Below, one piece after another: positions 20,738 through 30,868 of a stretch of DNA of 33,426 nt. How positions within the stretch are numbered: position 1 is the first letter of the stretch; every line of letters starts with the position of its first letter. The DNA is from Pseudomonadota bacterium (lineage in GTDB: Bacteria > CALINM01): NCBI GenBank assembly GCA_026415985.1, contig JAOAGA010000009.1, positions 1 through 33,426 on the forward strand. Direction: 5' to 3'. A program made the translations under genes and the position numbers. Under the pieces are notes generated by a model that saw nothing but the letters and a program-made list of their open reading frames with translations, was not told the DNA's origin and did not search any database.

Positions 20738-21430
20738 CTACCTACTAAAGATTACAAAAATTAAATATGTTATTCCGGTGCCTACGAATGCTCCGTACAA
20801 AACTTCTTCTTTTTTATGGATGCCCAAGTAATATCTGCTCAAACTGACAATAAGGGCGAAAAAAATAACCGCTATATTAATATAAATATTTTTTTGTGAG
20901 AACAATACTGATAACATAAAAGAGAAGGCACAGGCGGAATGTCCCGATGGCATACCGCCTCTAAGGGGTCTCCCCCTCCTGTAATAAGCCTTAAGCAGTA
21001 TTACAGATATAACAACCATTAACAATGAAATAGAACCTAAATATAACCCGCTTTCGGTTAATCTTTGCGGAACATCTCTGAAAATATATTTGGAGAAGAT
21101 ATAGATACCACCAAAAAGGGCTGTCACAGAGGATAAAAGAACAGCACCCGCAGAGATATCCTTTGCGTGTTTAACAGATATGTGAAAATCCTTTTTAAAC
21201 TCATCGAGGGTAATTTCTACAGCGGTATTTATAAGTTCCGTTATTATTACAAAGGTGATGAGGATAGATAATATTAGGAAATCGATGACAGAAACGTTCA
21301 GGATCATTGCAGAAAAAATGACCAGTATTGCAGAAGCAAAGTGAACTCTCATGTGCTTCTGAGTTTTTAATGTGTAGATAATGCCTTCGCAGGCACAATT
21401 TACAGAGTTAAAAAAGTTTTTAGGCTTCAT
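20738..21430 (-). CDS. DgkA-type lipid kinase fused to PAP2 phosphatase
   Basis: DgkA part: CACEGIIYTLKTQKHMRVHFASAI, ITELINTAVEITLDEF, HAKDISAGAVLL. PAP2 part: KAYYRRGRP, PSGHSACAFS, SRYYLGIHKKEE. One uninterrupted 230-aa ORF. Confidence 0.92.
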   Translation of the reverse strand: MKPKNFFNSVNCACEGIIYTLKTQKHMRVHFASAILVIFSAMILNVSVIDFLILSILITFVIITELINTAVEITLDEFKKDFHISVKHAKDISAGAVLLSSVTALFGGIYIFSKYIFRDVPQRLTESGLYLGSISLLMVVISVILLKAYYRRGRPLRGGMPSGHSACAFSFMLSVLFSQKNIYINIAVIFFALIVSLSRYYLGIHKKEEVLYGAFVGTGITYLIFVIFSR

Positions 21431-21907: not shown

Positions 21908-24163
21908 CTATTTTTTACCATTTTCCTTTTTTGTTTTTATATCGGGGTAGTCAATCCTTTGATGATAGACTCCCATTAATGTTCTTGTAAAGCTCTCCGT
22001 GACCAATGTAAGGTCTTTCAATGTAAGTTCGCATTCATCAAGTTGCCCGTCAAGAAAGATATCGTTGATTATCTTTCTTACAAGCCCTTTTATTCTACCT
22101 GCGGTTGGTTCATCGAGAACTCTGCTGGCTGCTTCAACCGCATCTGCCATCATAATCAGGGCAACCTCTCTTGTTTTGGGTTTAGGCCCGGGGTAGCGAA
22201 AGTTTTCTTCCGATACGTTCGGATCTGCCTTAAGTGCCTTTGCGTAAAAAAAGGTTACAACTCTTGTGCCGTGATGCTGAGAAATGGCATCGATTATCTG
22301 GTCTCCCAAGTTATATTGCCTGGCTATTTCAATGCCTTCTTTTACATGAGAGGTTACTATGAGATAACTCATTGATGGTGATAGCTCTTCGTGTTTGTTG
22401 TATCCGGAAAACTGGTTTTCAATAAAAAATTCAGGCATCTTTATCTTACCTATATCGTGATAATAAGCTGAGACTCTTGCAAGAATAGGATTAACCTTTA
22501 TGGCACTCGCTGCCGATTCAACCATATTAGCTATAAGCATACTATGATTGTAGGTGCCCGGCGCCTTCATCATAAGCTCTTTAAGAAGCGGATGGTCAAG
22601 ATTACTCAGTTCTATTAATTTAATAGTTGTTGTATATTTAAAAATATACTCAAATATGGGGGTTAGCATTATAAGAAGTGTCGTTGAAAGAAAACCACTT
22701 ATAATAACACTGCCAATAACTATCATCTTTGTGGCATCTAAGCTTATCTTTCTTTCAGTAAAGTAAAACATAACCAGCACAAAGAGAATATTAAAAAGAG
22801 AGATTTTAAAACTCGATCTTAGTATATCTGTTCTTGTGTAGTTTCTTCCGATAATATTTATACCAACCAGTGAAGAGCCAAGAAAGTATAAGATAATATA
22901 GTAGTTTTGCGGAAATATGTTTCCTATAATTATCACTGCATAAAAAAGAGAGATAATGGCAGTTTCTGAATTAAGGAAGAGTCTCAGTAACATTCCTGAA
23001 AGCGCAAAGGGAACAAAGAGAACAAAAAGTTCCGGATGGATATTATAGTCATAACTGATTAATATCCCGAAGAGATAAAAGACACCTAAAGAAAGAAAAG
23101 TCAGAGATATTACCGTTAGATTGAAGAGGATACTTTTATAGTCATAGCGGAATTTTTTAATAGACGCTACCGATAGATTATAGAAAAGAACACTAAAGAA
23201 AAAATAAATCAGGAAGGTTATAAGAATATTAATGAGACTGATTTTTTTCAGCTCCTCTTTTTTAATGGCTGTTATCTTATCGTAAATCTGGGGTGAAACT
23301 ATTTCTCCCTTTGATACGAGTAGCTCTCCGCTTCTTATTACGATGAAGTTTGGCTCGATCTTTCTTATGGCAACATTTTCCCTAATCTCAGTCTCAGCAA
23401 TATTATAGGAAATATTAGGCTGAATAAGATAAAAAATTGCATCTCCAATAGTTTTCTGATGTTTAGTGGCAAGCTCACTTTTATCACTTTCTAACAGGCT
23501 TTTTATATAGCTTTTTAAGTCATTCTTATTAAAAATAAAGTCGGGATCTTTTATAAATATCTCTTCATAGGAGGGTAACACTCTTTTGATAACCCGTCTT
23601 TCCTGCTGAAAGGATTCTTCCCTTAGATATCCCTTCTCATATATTTTTGAGAGTATTTGGGCTATTTTACTTTCCACTTCTTTGGAAAAGGAAAGAGACC
23701 ATAAGTTAATAAAGCTATCATAGGGGAAGCTTGATATTTTAAAGATTAACTTAAACTTCTCATAGCCGTCGTTTGCTATCTCGTTGTTATTCTTATAATT
23801 TTCGTAAGGGAAAAGTTTTGTCCATCCCCTCATCTGGGCAAAATTAGAGCTTAGCTCTTCAAGATATTTTTCCGTAAGGGAAGGATCATAATCTATAATC
23901 TGAGGAGAGGTTTTCCTTGCCTGAATTTTTTTCTTGTCAAGGGTGTAATAATCGGGAAGAAAATAATTTTTTAAGGCTACTATATTTTTATCTGACTTAT
24001 GTCCTGCCTTTATATCTTTAAAATAGAAGAAAACCTCATAGGGAAGTGAAAGGGCGGTAAGTATTAAAGAAAAGATCAGGGAAAGATAGATAAGCCTGAG
24101 CTTATCGTAATCTTTTATTAACGGCTTTTTTAAAAAATCTTCCTTTTTAAATCTTTTTGCCAT
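21908..24163 (-). CDS. pgpH: 7TM receptor with HD hydrolase domain (PgpH-type, c-di-AMP phosphodiesterase family)
   Basis: Large N-terminal extracytoplasmic region, multiple TM helices, C-terminal HD domain: KAPGTYNHSMLIANMVESAASAI, RVSAYYHDIGKIKMPEFFIENQ, ISQHHGTRVVTFF, IMMADAVEAASR. Confidence 0.9.
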   Translation of the reverse strand: MAKRFKKEDFLKKPLIKDYDKLRLIYLSLIFSLILTALSLPYEVFFYFKDIKAGHKSDKNIVALKNYFLPDYYTLDKKKIQARKTSPQIIDYDPSLTEKYLEELSSNFAQMRGWTKLFPYENYKNNNEIANDGYEKFKLIFKISSFPYDSFINLWSLSFSKEVESKIAQILSKIYEKGYLREESFQQERRVIKRVLPSYEEIFIKDPDFIFNKNDLKSYIKSLLESDKSELATKHQKTIGDAIFYLIQPNISYNIAETEIRENVAIRKIEPNFIVIRSGELLVSKGEIVSPQIYDKITAIKKEELKKISLINILITFLIYFFFSVLFYNLSVASIKKFRYDYKSILFNLTVISLTFLSLGVFYLFGILISYDYNIHPELFVLFVPFALSGMLLRLFLNSETAIISLFYAVIIIGNIFPQNYYIILYFLGSSLVGINIIGRNYTRTDILRSSFKISLFNILFVLVMFYFTERKISLDATKMIVIGSVIISGFLSTTLLIMLTPIFEYIFKYTTTIKLIELSNLDHPLLKELMMKAPGTYNHSMLIANMVESAASAIKVNPILARVSAYYHDIGKIKMPEFFIENQFSGYNKHEELSPSMSYLIVTSHVKEGIEIARQYNLGDQIIDAISQHHGTRVVTFFYAKALKADPNVSEENFRYPGPKPKTREVALIMMADAVEAASRVLDEPTAGRIKGLVRKIINDIFLDGQLDECELTLKDLTLVTESFTRTLMGVYHQRIDYPDIKTKKENGKK

Positions 24164-25580
24164 AAGCTTCTCTTATGTAATCTATTGCGTCCCTTTTGTC
24201 TTTAAACCTGCCTTCCAGTTCTAACTCTTTAATATCAGTAATAATTTTACCAACAAGGGGCCCCTCCTCTAATTTCAATATTTCCATTATGTCTGATCCG
24301 TTGAGCAGTGGTTGCTTTTCTTTATTTTTTTTGTCAAAGTTTAAATAATCTTCGTAAAGTTTTTTTGCACCGGTTATTAAATAAGAGCTGTTTTCATTAT
24401 CCTTAGCGAGGTTATCGGCAATAAAAAGAACAAAAAGTAAGGCTGTAAAAGGTCCTACTTCTTTATTTAATCTAAAGTATGCCTTAGGAGAGAGCTTTAG
24501 ATTTTCTTTGGAAGACTGAATAATATGGAAGGGATATAAATGTAATTTTATTAGCTTTTCTATAAAGTTAACTGATTTTGAGGAAAACTTTTCCTTTATC
24601 AAGAAATTTTTCAAAAAATTACTACCTTCTTCATCGTGTTTATAAAAAGTAATTTTATTATTAATTACCTTTTTAGTCAAAATCTTTCCTGTATCATGAA
24701 GAAGAGCGGTGAGTTTTAGGGCAGAAAGGGCGGAAAAACCATGCTCTAACTCTTCTGAAAGGATATTTTTATCGAACTCTAAGGGGAACCCTGCATCGTT
24801 GAAGGTTTCTATTATCCTGAGCGTTTCCAGGCTATGGTTAAACAGGTCATATTTATGTAGTTTCCCGCTGTAAAAATTTTTATAGGACTCCATAAAAGGA
24901 AAAAGTGTCTTTAAAAGATTAGATTCATCCATATCTCTGAAAATTTTTTCAGTATTTCGAAAGGATAATATTTTAAAAAGTTCAGCCTTGAGTCTTTCCT
25001 TTGCGACATCTCCTGTGAGAAATGACAGCTCCTTAATATACCCTTTTGTTTTATCTTCTATTTCAAAATTAAGCTGAGCTTTAAATCTGTAAGCTCTTAG
25101 TAATCTTAAAGGGTCTGAAACAAGGTTTTCTCTTGAGATAGCCCTGATAATCTTTTTTTCTATATCTGGAAACCCTTCCAGGGGGTCTATTATCTCAATC
25201 TCACGATTTCTGATTTTTATTGCTGTTGCGTTTACGGAAAAATCCCTTCGTTGTAAATCCTCAATAATATCAGCTCCCTGTAGTTTTGATATATCAAGAT
25301 ATCTTTCAAAACCTTTGATAAATACCCTGTATACCCCGAAGTCTTCGTCAAGGGTTATAATATTACCTTTCATCTCTCTTTTAAAATAGTTAAGTGCGCC
25401 ATTAATATCTTTAACTGCAATATCAATATCAAAATTCTTCTCTTTATTCAGATAGATATCTCTTACGAAACCACCGACAAAATAATTTCCATCTTCCTTC
25501 ATAAAGCAGGTGAGTTTCTCCGGCAGAAGGGATAAAATATAAGAAAAATTTTTTTTGAAATTATTGAGAGGGTTGTCCAT
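24147..25580 (-). CDS. Class II CCA/poly(A) nucleotidyltransferase family protein with HD domain
   Basis: YFVGGFVRDIYLNKEKNFDIDIAV (nucleotidyltransferase motif), RRDFSVNATAIKI, SDPLRLLRAYRFKAQLNF; HD motif ALLHDTGKI. CCA-, A- or CC-adding activity cannot be decided by eye. Confidence 0.88.
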   Translation of the reverse strand: MDNPLNNFKKNFSYILSLLPEKLTCFMKEDGNYFVGGFVRDIYLNKEKNFDIDIAVKDINGALNYFKREMKGNIITLDEDFGVYRVFIKGFERYLDISKLQGADIIEDLQRRDFSVNATAIKIRNREIEIIDPLEGFPDIEKKIIRAISRENLVSDPLRLLRAYRFKAQLNFEIEDKTKGYIKELSFLTGDVAKERLKAELFKILSFRNTEKIFRDMDESNLLKTLFPFMESYKNFYSGKLHKYDLFNHSLETLRIIETFNDAGFPLEFDKNILSEELEHGFSALSALKLTALLHDTGKILTKKVINNKITFYKHDEEGSNFLKNFLIKEKFSSKSVNFIEKLIKLHLYPFHIIQSSKENLKLSPKAYFRLNKEVGPFTALLFVLFIADNLAKDNENSSYLITGAKKLYEDYLNFDKKNKEKQPLLNGSDIMEILKLEEGPLVGKIITDIKELELEGRFKDKRDAIDYIREAYGKKI

Positions 25581-25619: not shown

Positions 25620-27959
25620 TTAGATTTCTGCTTCATTTATTTTTGAAAGTTCTGGCTTCTTTTTGAGTAACTCATCTATCTTATTTTGAGCTATCTTTAA
25701 ACTTAAATCAAGATTATTTGCCTTTTTAAAACAGATATAGGCCTTGTCGTAATTTTTTTCTTTTTCATAGATGTTTCCTAACTCGAAGTAGATCCCCGCC
25801 TTTTTGTCTTCCGAAATATTACTAACTCCGAGAGCTCTTTTGTAGAAGATAGTTGCCTTTTCAAGCTCTCCTTTCTCCACAAAACAGTTTGCAATCATTA
25901 TATAGGAGTCATAGACCTTTTCTTCAAACTCAGAGGTAAGGAGAAACTCTCCTATGGCATCATCATAAAGCCCCATTTCTTTGTAGGCAATTCCCAGATT
26001 ATAATGAGTTTCTACATCTTCTTTCCCTATCTGCTGTGACAGCTTATCTTTAAACTCTTTAAAGAGACTTTCAAAGGTTATCCTCTCGGCATCATCCTTG
26101 AAGGGATATTTTATCTCAGGCTCACTTTCTAACTCTTTCATTATTTCCGATGTCAGATCAAAATATTCAGCTCCTTCTTCTTTCTTAACCGACGTTTCAG
26201 CTAATTCTTCCTTTTCCTCTACCTTTAAAGATGAAAGGATCTCCCTTGCCTTAACATTATCGGGATAAATTTCAAGTATCCGGTAGCAGATATCTTTAGC
26301 ACCTTCTGAATCATTATTCTTTAATTTAAACTGAGCTTCTATTATTAAATCTTCAAGATTAGGCTTAAAGCTCTCTGTCTCTATCTCTTCAATCTCTTCT
26401 ATTATCTCTGGTTCTTCAATAGTTTCTGTAATTTCTTCTTTTACAGCTTTTTCTTCGTCTTTCTTAAGGGAGTTCAGTTTGTCTTGATAAAAGGATATTT
26501 TTTCTGAATTTTCTGTGGATCTGTATATGTTCAGGAGTTCTTTATAGACCATCTGCAGTGCTTCGTAATCTTTTGTATTCTCGAAATATTCTGCCCACTT
26601 TTCCTTAACGAGCGGACTGTCAGGGAATCTTACGTTAAGATCTTCAAGCTTTTCCTTTGCATTTTTTAAAAGACCGTATTTAAGCAGAAAGCTTGCTTCT
26701 TCTACCTCCTTTTCAATGTTGGCAGGTTCTTTAATCTCAAGAACCTTATGCTCGGTATCCTCCGTTTGTGCCTTGGAGGCTTTTTTATGGCTTTCAATCT
26801 CTCTTTCTTCAAAGAATCTTACCGCTGACTCTTCATAGGGGTCTATTTTGATAATTTCTCTGTAAACTGTTTCGGCTTTAGATATGTCTTTCGCTTTATG
26901 ATAAAGCTTACCTAATTTCTTTAGATATTCAATTAAAAGGGGCTGGTTTTTTGTCTCCCTTGCCAGATCGATATACAGGTTGATTATCTTTTCTTCCTCA
27001 GGTAAATAGGGGAAGTAGTTATCGAGAAAAATTTTTATATGGTCATACTCCTTTTTATCTTTAAGAATTTTGTATATCTCTTCAAGGGCGATAATTAATG
27101 AGACAAAATCCTTCTGTTTGACCAGAAGCTTGGCAAGCCCTTTTCTTGCATCTATATGGTCATTTTTCAGCTTAATGGCGTTCTCAAAGCATGAGCGGGC
27201 AACTGCATAATTTCCTGTATTAAGATAGCAATAACCTTTAAGAGAATAAAAATCGGGGTTTTTCGGGTTTTGTTTTATAATGGTATCTAATTTGTTAATC
27301 GCATCGTTATACTTTCCCGATTCAAAAAGAGAAAGGGCAACCTTAAAAGATAAATCCTTGTCTTCCTGAATTATGCCGGGGAAATGGGACAGAAGTTTTT
27401 CCACCTCTTCCATCTTACCTTTGCTTTTGAGATAATCTATGCTTTGTTGTAATTTTTCTGCTGCACGGGAAGAAAGTCCCTGCTTGAGGTAAAACTCAAC
27501 GATCTTTCCTCTGTAAAAAACATTATCAGGATCATAGGATATAATCTTTTCCCACGTATTTATTGCCTCTGACAGATTCTTTTGTTTTTCCTGTATTTCT
27601 GCCAGACTTCTTAACTGAGTGAGGGCATCTCCTGTAAGACCCTGCTTTTTATATAGATCTGCTAATTTTTCGTAAATATCATATTTGGTAGGATCTGTTC
27701 TCAATACCTGTCTGTATATGGCAATAGCCTTTAAATAAAAGCCATCTTTTATATAGATATCAGCTACATTAAGATATTGATTTATTGCCTCGTTTTTCTT
27801 GCCTTTCCTTAGATATAAATCCCCCAACTTCTGGCGTAATTTAAAATCTTTAGGATCGATACGCAGTATCTTCTCATATTCCTCAATGGCTTTATCAATC
27901 TGCCCTTTTTGGATATACTTTTGAATATCTTCTAATACTTTTGCCTTATTGAAGCTCAT
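25620..27959 (-). CDS. Large tetratricopeptide-repeat protein
   Basis: 779 aa; repeated TPR signatures (AIEEYEKILRIDPKDFKLRQKLGDLYLRKG, AIAIYRQVLRTDPTKYDIYEKLADLYKKQG, HYNLGIAYKEMGLYDDAIGEF). Central Glu-rich linker; no signal peptide or TM helix seen. Confidence 0.9.
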   Translation of the reverse strand: MSFNKAKVLEDIQKYIQKGQIDKAIEEYEKILRIDPKDFKLRQKLGDLYLRKGKKNEAINQYLNVADIYIKDGFYLKAIAIYRQVLRTDPTKYDIYEKLADLYKKQGLTGDALTQLRSLAEIQEKQKNLSEAINTWEKIISYDPDNVFYRGKIVEFYLKQGLSSRAAEKLQQSIDYLKSKGKMEEVEKLLSHFPGIIQEDKDLSFKVALSLFESGKYNDAINKLDTIIKQNPKNPDFYSLKGYCYLNTGNYAVARSCFENAIKLKNDHIDARKGLAKLLVKQKDFVSLIIALEEIYKILKDKKEYDHIKIFLDNYFPYLPEEEKIINLYIDLARETKNQPLLIEYLKKLGKLYHKAKDISKAETVYREIIKIDPYEESAVRFFEEREIESHKKASKAQTEDTEHKVLEIKEPANIEKEVEEASFLLKYGLLKNAKEKLEDLNVRFPDSPLVKEKWAEYFENTKDYEALQMVYKELLNIYRSTENSEKISFYQDKLNSLKKDEEKAVKEEITETIEEPEIIEEIEEIETESFKPNLEDLIIEAQFKLKNNDSEGAKDICYRILEIYPDNVKAREILSSLKVEEKEELAETSVKKEEGAEYFDLTSEIMKELESEPEIKYPFKDDAERITFESLFKEFKDKLSQQIGKEDVETHYNLGIAYKEMGLYDDAIGEFLLTSEFEEKVYDSYIMIANCFVEKGELEKATIFYKRALGVSNISEDKKAGIYFELGNIYEKEKNYDKAYICFKKANNLDLSLKIAQNKIDELLKKKPELSKINEAEI

Positions 27960-27962
27960 CGG

Positions 27963-28337
27963 TTATTCAATCAACCTCTCATATTCGTCAATATCAAGAA
28001 GTTCTTCTGTCTCTTCCGGCTCATATAAGTCTATTTCAATTAACCAACCATCCCCATAGGGGTCTTCAACTATAACCTCAGGCTCATTTAAAACAAGATT
28101 ATTAACTCTGATCACTTCACCACTTAGTGGTGATATGAGGTCAATTACCTGTTCACTTGTATCCAAACCACCGAAGACCTCATCTTTGTCAACATCTTCA
28201 CCCTTCTTTGGAAGGGATACACCAACGATCTCCTTTGCCTTTTCCAGAAAGAACTCCGTTATCCCAATCTTGGCTCTCTCACCTTTTATGAAAACCCACA
28301 TATTTTCTTTAGAATACTTGAGCCCCTGAGGTAGCAT
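27963..28337 (-). CDS. GcvH-family protein lacking the lipoylated lysine
   Basis: LKYSKENMWVFIKGERAKIGITEFFLEKAKEIVGVSLPKKGEDV...SPLSGEVIRVNN...EDPYGDGWLIEI matches the GcvH fold; the ESVKAxSD lipoylation site reads DTSEQVID. SD AGGAGG upstream. Confidence 0.88.
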   Translation of the reverse strand: MLPQGLKYSKENMWVFIKGERAKIGITEFFLEKAKEIVGVSLPKKGEDVDKDEVFGGLDTSEQVIDLISPLSGEVIRVNNLVLNEPEVIVEDPYGDGWLIEIDLYEPEETEELLDIDEYERLIE

Positions 28338-28346
28338 AAAATCCTC

Positions 28347-28907
28347 CTATTTTACTCGCTCTATATAAGTGCCCGTTCTTGTATCTATCTTTATAATATC
28401 CCCTTCATTTACAAAAAGAGGAACGTTAATGGTTGCTCCTGTTTCGACCTTTGCAGGCTTTCCGCCACCGCTTACGGTATCGCCCTTAATACCGGGAACT
28501 GTTTCCACAACCTTTAGTTCAACAAAGGTTGGAACTTCAACGCCTATTACCTTACCTTCGAAGAAGTTAACCACTACATTCATATTTTCAACAATCCAGT
28601 TTTTGGCGTCACCCATTAGCTCTTCTGAGACAACTATCTGTTCATAACTTTCATTATCCATAAAAATATAACCATCCTCCGATGAATAAAGATATTGCAT
28701 GTTTCTGTCTTCTAATTCGGGTTTTTCCACCTTTTCCCCAGACCTAAAGGTATTTTCGATAATATAGCCTGTTTTTAAGTTTTTCATTTTAGTTCTAACA
28801 ATTGCCCCACCTCTGCCCATTTTAACATGCTGAAAATCGACAATTTCGTAGGGGTCATTATTAAAAACTATCTTAAGCCCCTTCTTAAAATCTGCGGTTG
28901 AATACAT
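28347..28907 (-). CDS. efp: Elongation factor P with Arg at the loop tip; start corrected from 28946 to ATG at 28905-28907
   Basis: MYSTADFKKGLKIVFNNDPYEIVDFQHVKMGRGGAIVRTKMKNLKTG...VPGIKGDTVSGGGKPAKVETGATINVPLFVNEGDIIKIDTRTGTYIERVK. GGAGG sits just upstream of this ATG. Confidence 0.96.
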   Translation of the reverse strand: MYSTADFKKGLKIVFNNDPYEIVDFQHVKMGRGGAIVRTKMKNLKTGYIIENTFRSGEKVEKPELEDRNMQYLYSSEDGYIFMDNESYEQIVVSEELMGDAKNWIVENMNVVVNFFEGKVIGVEVPTFVELKVVETVPGIKGDTVSGGGKPAKVETGATINVPLFVNEGDIIKIDTRTGTYIERVK

Positions 28908-28954
28908 AACAATCCTCCAAATAAAGTTTAATCTGTAAAAAGTCAAGGTTAATA

Positions 28955-29032: not shown

Positions 29033-30064
29033 TTATAATATTTCACAACCACTTTTTGTAACTAAAATCATCTCTTCGTATCTGACACCGCCAATTCCTT
29101 CAAAGTAAAGGCCGGGCTCAAGTGTAACAATCATCCCTTTTTTGAAAACCCCTTTCGTTTTATAACTAATTGCAGGTGACTCATGGACAGAAAGTCCTAT
29201 ACCATGACCTGATGAATGAAGAAAATTTTTTAAAACCCCATACTTTTCAAAGATATTTCTCACTGCCATATCAACATCTTTAATTTCTTTTCCATGGCCG
29301 ATTTTACTTAGCCCTGCGGTAAAGGCTGATTTAACAATTTTCAGACAGTTTTCCATTTCCGGATTATCAAAAATTATAGTTCTTGTATGATCTGTGCAAT
29401 AATTTTTAAACCTTAATCCAAAGTCAATAATTACAGAATCACCTTTTTTGACTTTTTTTGAACCCGGACTGCCATGAGGTAGAGAAGAGTTTTTTCCGCT
29501 TAAAACCAACGTTTCAAAGCTTATTCCTTCCCCCTTTCTTTTTAATCTGTAATCTAACTCGTTAACACATTCTGTTTCTTTGAGACCTATTAGATTAATG
29601 TTAGTAACAAAATCCTTATAGGCACTCTGAGATTTTTTTATAGCTGATTTTATAAGTTCAATCTCATCTTCATCTTTAATCTCTCTCATCTTTTTAATCA
29701 ATCTCTCTTTATCTTCATAAAAAGTAAGATCACTAAACTCTTCAATTAGTTTCCTGTAAAAGGCAAAAGCCAGAGTTTCTCCATCGAAGCAAATTCTTTT
29801 TATTCTTAAACCTTTTAAATAAGTTTTTAAATCATTCCAGAAGTCGGTGGTAAGGACAAGTTCCTTTAAATCTGTTTCCTTTTTAGCCTTTTCATAATAC
29901 CTTCCGTCTACAAAGAGGACACTTCCTCCCTTTGTGATTAAGAAGACCCCAAAGGAGCCATAAAAGCCTGAAAGGTAATATATATCTTCCTTGTTCAAAA
30001 CAAGAAAAGCCTCATCACTTTTCAAATTTTTTCTAAAAGTTTCTTCTCTCTTCTTAAAGTTCAT
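29033..30064 (-). CDS. M24 family aminopeptidase (Xaa-Pro type)
   Basis: VIIDFGLRFKNYCTDHTRTI, HSSGHGIGLSVHESP, GMIVTLEPGLYF, GVRYEEMILVT. Confidence 0.93.
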   Translation of the reverse strand: MNFKKREETFRKNLKSDEAFLVLNKEDIYYLSGFYGSFGVFLITKGGSVLFVDGRYYEKAKKETDLKELVLTTDFWNDLKTYLKGLRIKRICFDGETLAFAFYRKLIEEFSDLTFYEDKERLIKKMREIKDEDEIELIKSAIKKSQSAYKDFVTNINLIGLKETECVNELDYRLKRKGEGISFETLVLSGKNSSLPHGSPGSKKVKKGDSVIIDFGLRFKNYCTDHTRTIIFDNPEMENCLKIVKSAFTAGLSKIGHGKEIKDVDMAVRNIFEKYGVLKNFLHSSGHGIGLSVHESPAISYKTKGVFKKGMIVTLEPGLYFEGIGGVRYEEMILVTKSGCEIL

Positions 30065-30065
30065 T

Positions 30066-30512
30066 TCAGGCTTTTGTTTTTTGTAGATGACGGTAAATTG
30101 CTAACAGGGCTAAATAGTAGGAGTCTTCCTTAAAACCACTGATTACACCAAGGGCAATATCACTAATCATAGATATATGTCTAAACTCTTCTCTCGCAAA
30201 AACGTTGGAAAGGTGTACCTCTATAAAAGGTTTGTTAAAGATAAGAAGGGCATCCCTGATGGCGATACTTGTATGAGTATATGCACCCGCATTAATTATT
30301 ATCCCATCAATATTTTCTTCAACCGCTTTATGAATGGCAGATACAATCTCACCTTCTGTATTGCTCTGAAAAAATCCAAGTTTAATATTTAATCTTTTTG
30401 CCTCTTTTTTAAGGATTTCATTTATTTCTGACAAAGCTTGAGAACCATAATGTGTATTTTCCCTTTTTCCGAGCATATTTAAATTGGGTCCGTTGATTAT
30501 CAGAACTTTCAT
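30066..30512 (-). CDS. aroQ: 3-dehydroquinate dehydratase, type II
   Basis: VLIINGPNLNMLGKRENTHYG, FQSNTEGEIVSAIH, GIIINAGAYTHTSIAIRDAL, EVHLSNVFAREEFRH. Confidence 0.96.
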   Translation of the reverse strand: MKVLIINGPNLNMLGKRENTHYGSQALSEINEILKKEAKRLNIKLGFFQSNTEGEIVSAIHKAVEENIDGIIINAGAYTHTSIAIRDALLIFNKPFIEVHLSNVFAREEFRHISMISDIALGVISGFKEDSYYLALLAIYRHLQKTKA

Positions 30513-30868
30513 TTAAACTCTTCCCCCAGTTTCTCTGAGACAAGCTTGGCTAAATATTTTGCCTTTCCTATATTGCCATCGGTTTGAGTAATTAGAATTA
30601 AATAATACTCACGAGTTATAAGTCTGATAACTATAACACTGCTTTCTGTAGAAATAAGCACCTCTTCTAAACTCCCTAACTTTAAGATATCTGTTACCTT
30701 AAGTATTTGTTTCATAGCGGTAACATACTCAATGGCAAGCTCGTGAACGCGTGAACGTTCTTCCTTTGCCTTATCGGCAATTACAATACCGTCTTTATCG
30801 ATAATCAGGGCAGCAGAAACTGATGCTTCTCTCTTTAAAATCTCTTCTATCTTTTTTTCCAGCTCCAT
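30509..30868 (-). CDS. Roadblock/LC7 domain protein
   Basis: 119 aa; pattern EASVSAALIIDKDGIVIADKA...EYVTAMKQILK...EEVLISTESSVIVIRLITREYYLILITQTDGNIGKAKYLAKLVSEKL. Confidence 0.75.
   Translation of the reverse strand: MELEKKIEEILKREASVSAALIIDKDGIVIADKAKEERSRVHELAIEYVTAMKQILKVTDILKLGSLEEVLISTESSVIVIRLITREYYLILITQTDGNIGKAKYLAKLVSEKLGEEFK

Follow-up and report, generated by a model that had tools for sequence, protein, structure and literature searches.

The H protein of the glycine cleavage system (GcvH) works in glycine cleavage through lipoate attached to its lysine. Members of the family are recognised by the Pfam model PF01597 (GCV_H) and by the NCBIfam equivalog model TIGR00527. In the E. 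coli H protein the aminomethyl-lipoate arm is clamped by Glu14, according to simulation and mutagenesis of Ser-67 (PMC7733448). A GcvH homolog acting outside glycine cleavage is the lipoate-binding protein LbpA of sHdr sulfur oxidation, in which the lysine is strictly kept and lipoylated (PMC6067878). Two further NCBI models, TIGR03077 (not_gcvH, glycine cleavage protein H-like protein) and NF045810 (GcvH-related protein), describe H-like proteins modelled apart from gcvH. No paper on a GcvH devoid of the lysine was found in the literature searched, in which subscription papers were few.

The window analysed here, 33,426 nucleotides of contig JAOAGA010000009.1 from a bacterium of the GTDB lineage CALINM01, encodes one full-length protein of the GCV_H family (124 aa), referred to below as the H-like protein. 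Its gene starts with ATG preceded by AGGAGG. The protein is homologous to GcvH over its whole length, is 40% identical to the pea H protein, and matches PF01597 along positions 1-119 of 122 (E 1e-28, 100 bits against a cut-off of 22.2). It stays under the TIGR00527 cut-off of 115.85 bits and far under those of the two models set apart from gcvH (48 of 144 bits for TIGR03077, 40 of 150 bits for NF045810). The features discussed are collected in Table 1.

Table 1. Features of the gcvH-like gene and its conserved surroundings in the window
Feature	Position	Strand	Evidence
GcvH-family (H-like) protein	27963..28337	-	PF01597 E 1.1e-28; TIGR00527 99.3 bits; AF2 pLDDT 95.5; TM 0.88-0.92
GAA = Glu62, lipoyl-lysine position	28152..28154	-	sequence; 1dxm alignment; Glu also in G002, G016
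ATG = Met13 (residue 14, pea/E. coli numbering), Glu14-clamp position	28299..28301	-	sequence, alignments; PMC7733448
TPR protein, 779 aa, candidate partner	25620..27959	-	Pfam TPR families; 51% identical ortholog, same place in G002
Elongation factor P (efp), 9 bases upstream of the gcvH-like gene	28347..28910	-	NF001810 269 bits; 79% identity to G002
Xaa-Pro peptidase-like M24 protein, conserved operon	29033..30064	-	Pfam M24, synteny
aroQ type II dehydroquinase, conserved operon	30066..30512	-	Pfam, synteny
Roadblock/LC7-family protein, first gene of conserved run	30509..30868	-	PF08923/PF03259, synteny
tRNA nucleotidyltransferase/poly(A) polymerase-HD protein, next in conserved run	24147..25580	-	Pfam, synteny

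In the phmmer alignment ESVKATSD of the pea H protein (1dxm) lies over DTSEQVID of the H-like protein without a gap, so that the lipoyl-lysine, Lys63 in pea, corresponds to Glu62. The replacement of this lysine by Glu, reported in the preliminary description, was confirmed in both codon and coordinates by the reading frame and by this alignment. The hairpin has no lysine inside, K51 being the closest one; a lysine shifted within the hairpin was sought and was absent in the window protein and in the Glu forms of two other genomes described below (G002 and G016). The same Glu62 sets the protein apart from LbpA, and no hdr-like genes were seen among the open reading frames of the window or of the corresponding G002 region.

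The rest of the protein looks like an H protein, as had been claimed earlier: EDPYGDGWLIEI is present, and an AlphaFold2 model built from 33 sequences has a mean confidence that leaves the H-protein fold confidently predicted as kept. Solved H proteins, with TM values of 0.88-0.92, were among the best Foldseek matches of this model. Two strands of the model, 54-60 and 64-68, are joined by a turn that contains Glu62; this is where the lipoyl-lysine hairpin normally lies.

The lysine is not the only residue of the lipoyl-arm site that differs. The positions of the arm-holding Glu14 and Ser67 are occupied by Met and Ile in the window protein, by Ile and Val in its G002 ortholog and by Leu and Phe in the G016 protein, position 14 being hydrophobic in all three Glu forms, and a further Asn of the site is changed to Val or Leu. 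Judged by these residues, the arm-binding site of the H-like protein is dismantled beyond the loss of the lysine. To see this in a broader frame, 213 distinct H domains were taken from the retrieved loci, 197 with the lysine and 16 without it, a sample picked by similarity to the window protein and not at random. An acid at position 14 was absent in all 16 Lys-less forms and kept in 119 of 132 Lys forms of the thinned set, which gives a Fisher value of 6e-14 if kinship is ignored. After correction for kinship there were three well-supported independent pairs, of which about two agreed and none disagreed, too few for significance, and the link between the two losses as independent events is therefore suggestive.

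The three phylum genomes were searched for the partners and the cofactor pathway of an H protein. None of them gave a match to GcvT or a match to LipA over the cut-off, and GcvP gave only sub-cut-off matches, the one inspected being a PLP protein of Cys/Met metabolism adjoining cysteine synthase. The BPL/LplA/LipB family (PF03099) had one match in each of two phylum genomes; the sole match in the genome carrying the window, the only one of the family checked, is BirA, an HTH-bearing biotin ligase. The biotin_lipoyl-domain matches inspected carry biotin-type AMKM motifs. In the window's own genome neither GcvP and GcvT nor lipoylation machinery (LipA together with LipB, LplA or LipM) was thus detected, and the LipS1/S2 route, outside this search, also needs an LplA-type ligase (PMC10332631). 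Since the three genomes are 84-92% complete (84% for the own genome), little weight can be put on one missing gene, but that all of them are jointly missing from the three genomes is telling. The earlier remark that the window holds no gcvT, gcvP or lipoate gene extends, within the limits of detection, to the genome. No canonical GcvH was found elsewhere in the own genome, and the gene described here was the sole GCV_H gene detected there.

Within the phylum, one other genome was found to carry the gene: G002, of a sister genus. The third, G001, is devoid of efp and the gcvH-like gene altogether, which is probably an assembly gap. The G002 ortholog is 46% identical, stands in the same operon and also has Glu at the lysine position (DNGEDLVE). 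The gene order robl-aroQ-pepP-efp-gcvH-like-TPR-cca-HD-ybeY-dgkA/PAP2-lnt is common to both genomes, and the gene of the TPR protein begins 3 bases past the stop codon of the gcvH-like gene in the window and 6 bases past it in G002. The dgkA/PAP2 gene (20738-21430) codes for a single protein that joins diacylglycerol kinase with a PAP2 phosphatase, and G002 has this fusion too.

A Roadblock/LC7 protein and a large TPR protein are thus found in one conserved run. In the polarity system of Myxococcus, Roadblock and TPR proteins (MglB, SgmX) act together. The label SgmX was rejected for the TPR protein of the window, as it scores 204 bits where 1800 are required, which indicates generic TPR similarity only.

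The close relatives of the H-like protein in the searched genome contigs were nearly all ordinary Lys-bearing GcvH proteins. A Glu form was found in G016, a genome of another phylum, beside a canonical GcvH, so that the coexistence of a Lys-less form with a normal copy, considered in the preliminary description, occurs there and not in the own genome. The G016 gene (L132:1495-1893, contig G016:C108) is surrounded by nifS on the opposite strand and by pgsA-like and mlaC-like genes; TPR and EF-P genes were not seen next to it. The phylum of G016 holds one genome and yielded no further Glu members. The hairpins of the clean Glu forms, DTSEQVID (window), DNGEDLVE (G002) and ETGEEVFE, are all acidic. 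In the tree the window protein and its G002 ortholog formed a supported pair (SH-aLRT/bootstrap 100/87), which G016 joined in the best tree as one clade with a support of 48/43 that leaves this grouping unsupported.

Other residues at the lysine site were also encountered: Arg in G039/G184, G170/G023 and L087, Thr in L042/L051 (two MAGs that the tree places near Binataceae), Asp in Acidipropionibacterium (L092) and Ser in G148. Since Lys-less forms occur in several lineages with Arg, Thr, Asp and Ser, the lysine has been lost several times among H homologs. These proteins share with the H-like protein the H fold and the loss of both the lysine and acid-14, but they differ from it in the residue at the site and in their neighbours, and only the G016 form closely resembles it.

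Several of these loci deserve a short description. The Asp-type gene of Acidipropionibacterium timonense (L092:8001-8408) is followed downstream by genes for an FHA-domain (GarA-like) protein and for two regulators of the MerR type, a neighbourhood usual for gcvH in actinobacteria. The Arg-type proteins of L153 and L201 (G170 and G023) are the only strong GCV_H match listed in their respective genomes, and the G170 gene comes after a cca/poly(A) polymerase-HD gene. A Candidatus Zipacnadia MAG (L085:6829-7671) encodes tandem H proteins, the first with the lysine and the second without a hairpin lysine and with a one-residue insertion. A similar insertion at the lysine hairpin is present in an H-like protein encoded directly downstream of dnaK in G151 (L173:1935-2378). 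As the insertion makes the aligned residue ambiguous, L085 and L173 were left out of the clean Glu forms.

Three other explanations of the Glu hairpin were weighed. A sequencing, assembly or strain-specific error masking a normal GcvH, named in the preliminary description as what would overturn its reading, might be suspected in a genome fragmented into 161 contigs and 84% complete. It is ruled out by the independent Glu of the G002 ortholog, to which the Glu of G016, the additional changes at Glu14, Asn and Ser67 and the absence of the pathway may be added; the probability left to an error is practically negligible. Alternatively, the gene could be an evolutionary remnant, decaying after the loss of lipoate and glycine cleavage and kept only by its place in an essential operon. 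The undetected pathway genes and the loss of the lysine in several other lineages with differing replacements are in line with decay, as is the greater divergence from G002 of the H-like protein than of EF-P (46% against 79% identity). This divergence, however, equals that of neighbours such as cca and dgk (45% identity). The frame is also intact in two genera, and the differences at the first, second and third codon positions (0.39/0.20/0.69) are dominated by the third position and close to those of the neighbouring genes. Such a pattern fits purifying selection, at a distance too large for a formal dN/dS. With the core residues and predicted fold kept and the same residue, Glu, found in three genomes, a remnant is considered unlikely.

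The H-like protein could also act as a cofactor-free docking H protein, that is, a regulatory subunit whose acidic hairpin enters the enzyme site normally visited by the lipoyl-lysine hairpin. The M24 peptidase, HD-domain proteins or biotin enzymes are examples of such an enzyme, whose gene could belong to this operon or lie elsewhere. The shape of the hairpin, kept and acidic in all clean Glu forms, and a fold that is that of a carrier docking into enzymes would suit such a role; no enzyme to which a normal H protein docks was detected in the phylum, however, and no such partner was identified, which makes this explanation quite improbable.

The reading preferred here is that the protein is a retained, non-lipoylated H-protein fold, and this is regarded as very likely. 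The earlier statement that lipoate cannot be carried at Glu62 proved stronger than originally put, since the whole arm site is changed and the genes for lipoate and glycine cleavage were undetected in the phylum. Of the interpretation as a whole, the non-lipoylated state held, a canonical copy alongside did not hold for the own genome, and the repurposing as a binding or regulatory scaffold is what we infer, the one pointer to a partner being the efp-gcvH-like-TPR order in two genera.

If the shape of a carrier is preserved although its arm is gone, the carrier most likely still binds proteins, and on balance a function as a protein-binding adaptor is slightly favoured. The TPR protein, encoded directly after the H-like protein in both genera, is the first candidate partner, although the adjacency is weak evidence because the whole gene run is conserved and may reflect general synteny, and the G016 Glu form has other neighbours; its assignment as the partner is a tentative guess from the conserved gene order. 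The adjacency of EF-P by itself says little about a partner.

The following course of events may be proposed. Glycine cleavage and lipoylation would have been lost in the ancestor, after which the lysine and the lipoyl-arm pocket could vary: Glu would have taken the place of the lysine, Met/Ile that of Glu14, Val/Leu that of Asn and Ile/Val that of Ser67. The protein would then have been retained under selection for a new role, since its surface would bind something else, and would now serve as a cofactor-free adaptor of small size and acidic character, with the TPR protein, translated next, as its most plausible partner. More speculatively, and with considerable doubt, the Glu forms may belong to an unrecognised cofactor-free H subfamily that is not confined to one phylum, shares the hairpin [DE]-[TN]-[SG]-E-x-[VL]-x-[DE], acts as an adaptor or regulator and can persist without lipoate metabolism.

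For annotation, the Lys-less proteins of L042, L087, L153 and L173 pass the NCBIfam gcvH cut-off and would thus be named GcvH despite a missing or displaced carrier lysine; such names mislead the prediction of pathways from gene names. For the family, the case shows that the fold of the H protein can persist after cofactor and pathway are gone, and the loss of the lysine in several lineages points to a second role that is normally hidden by the lipoyl arm.
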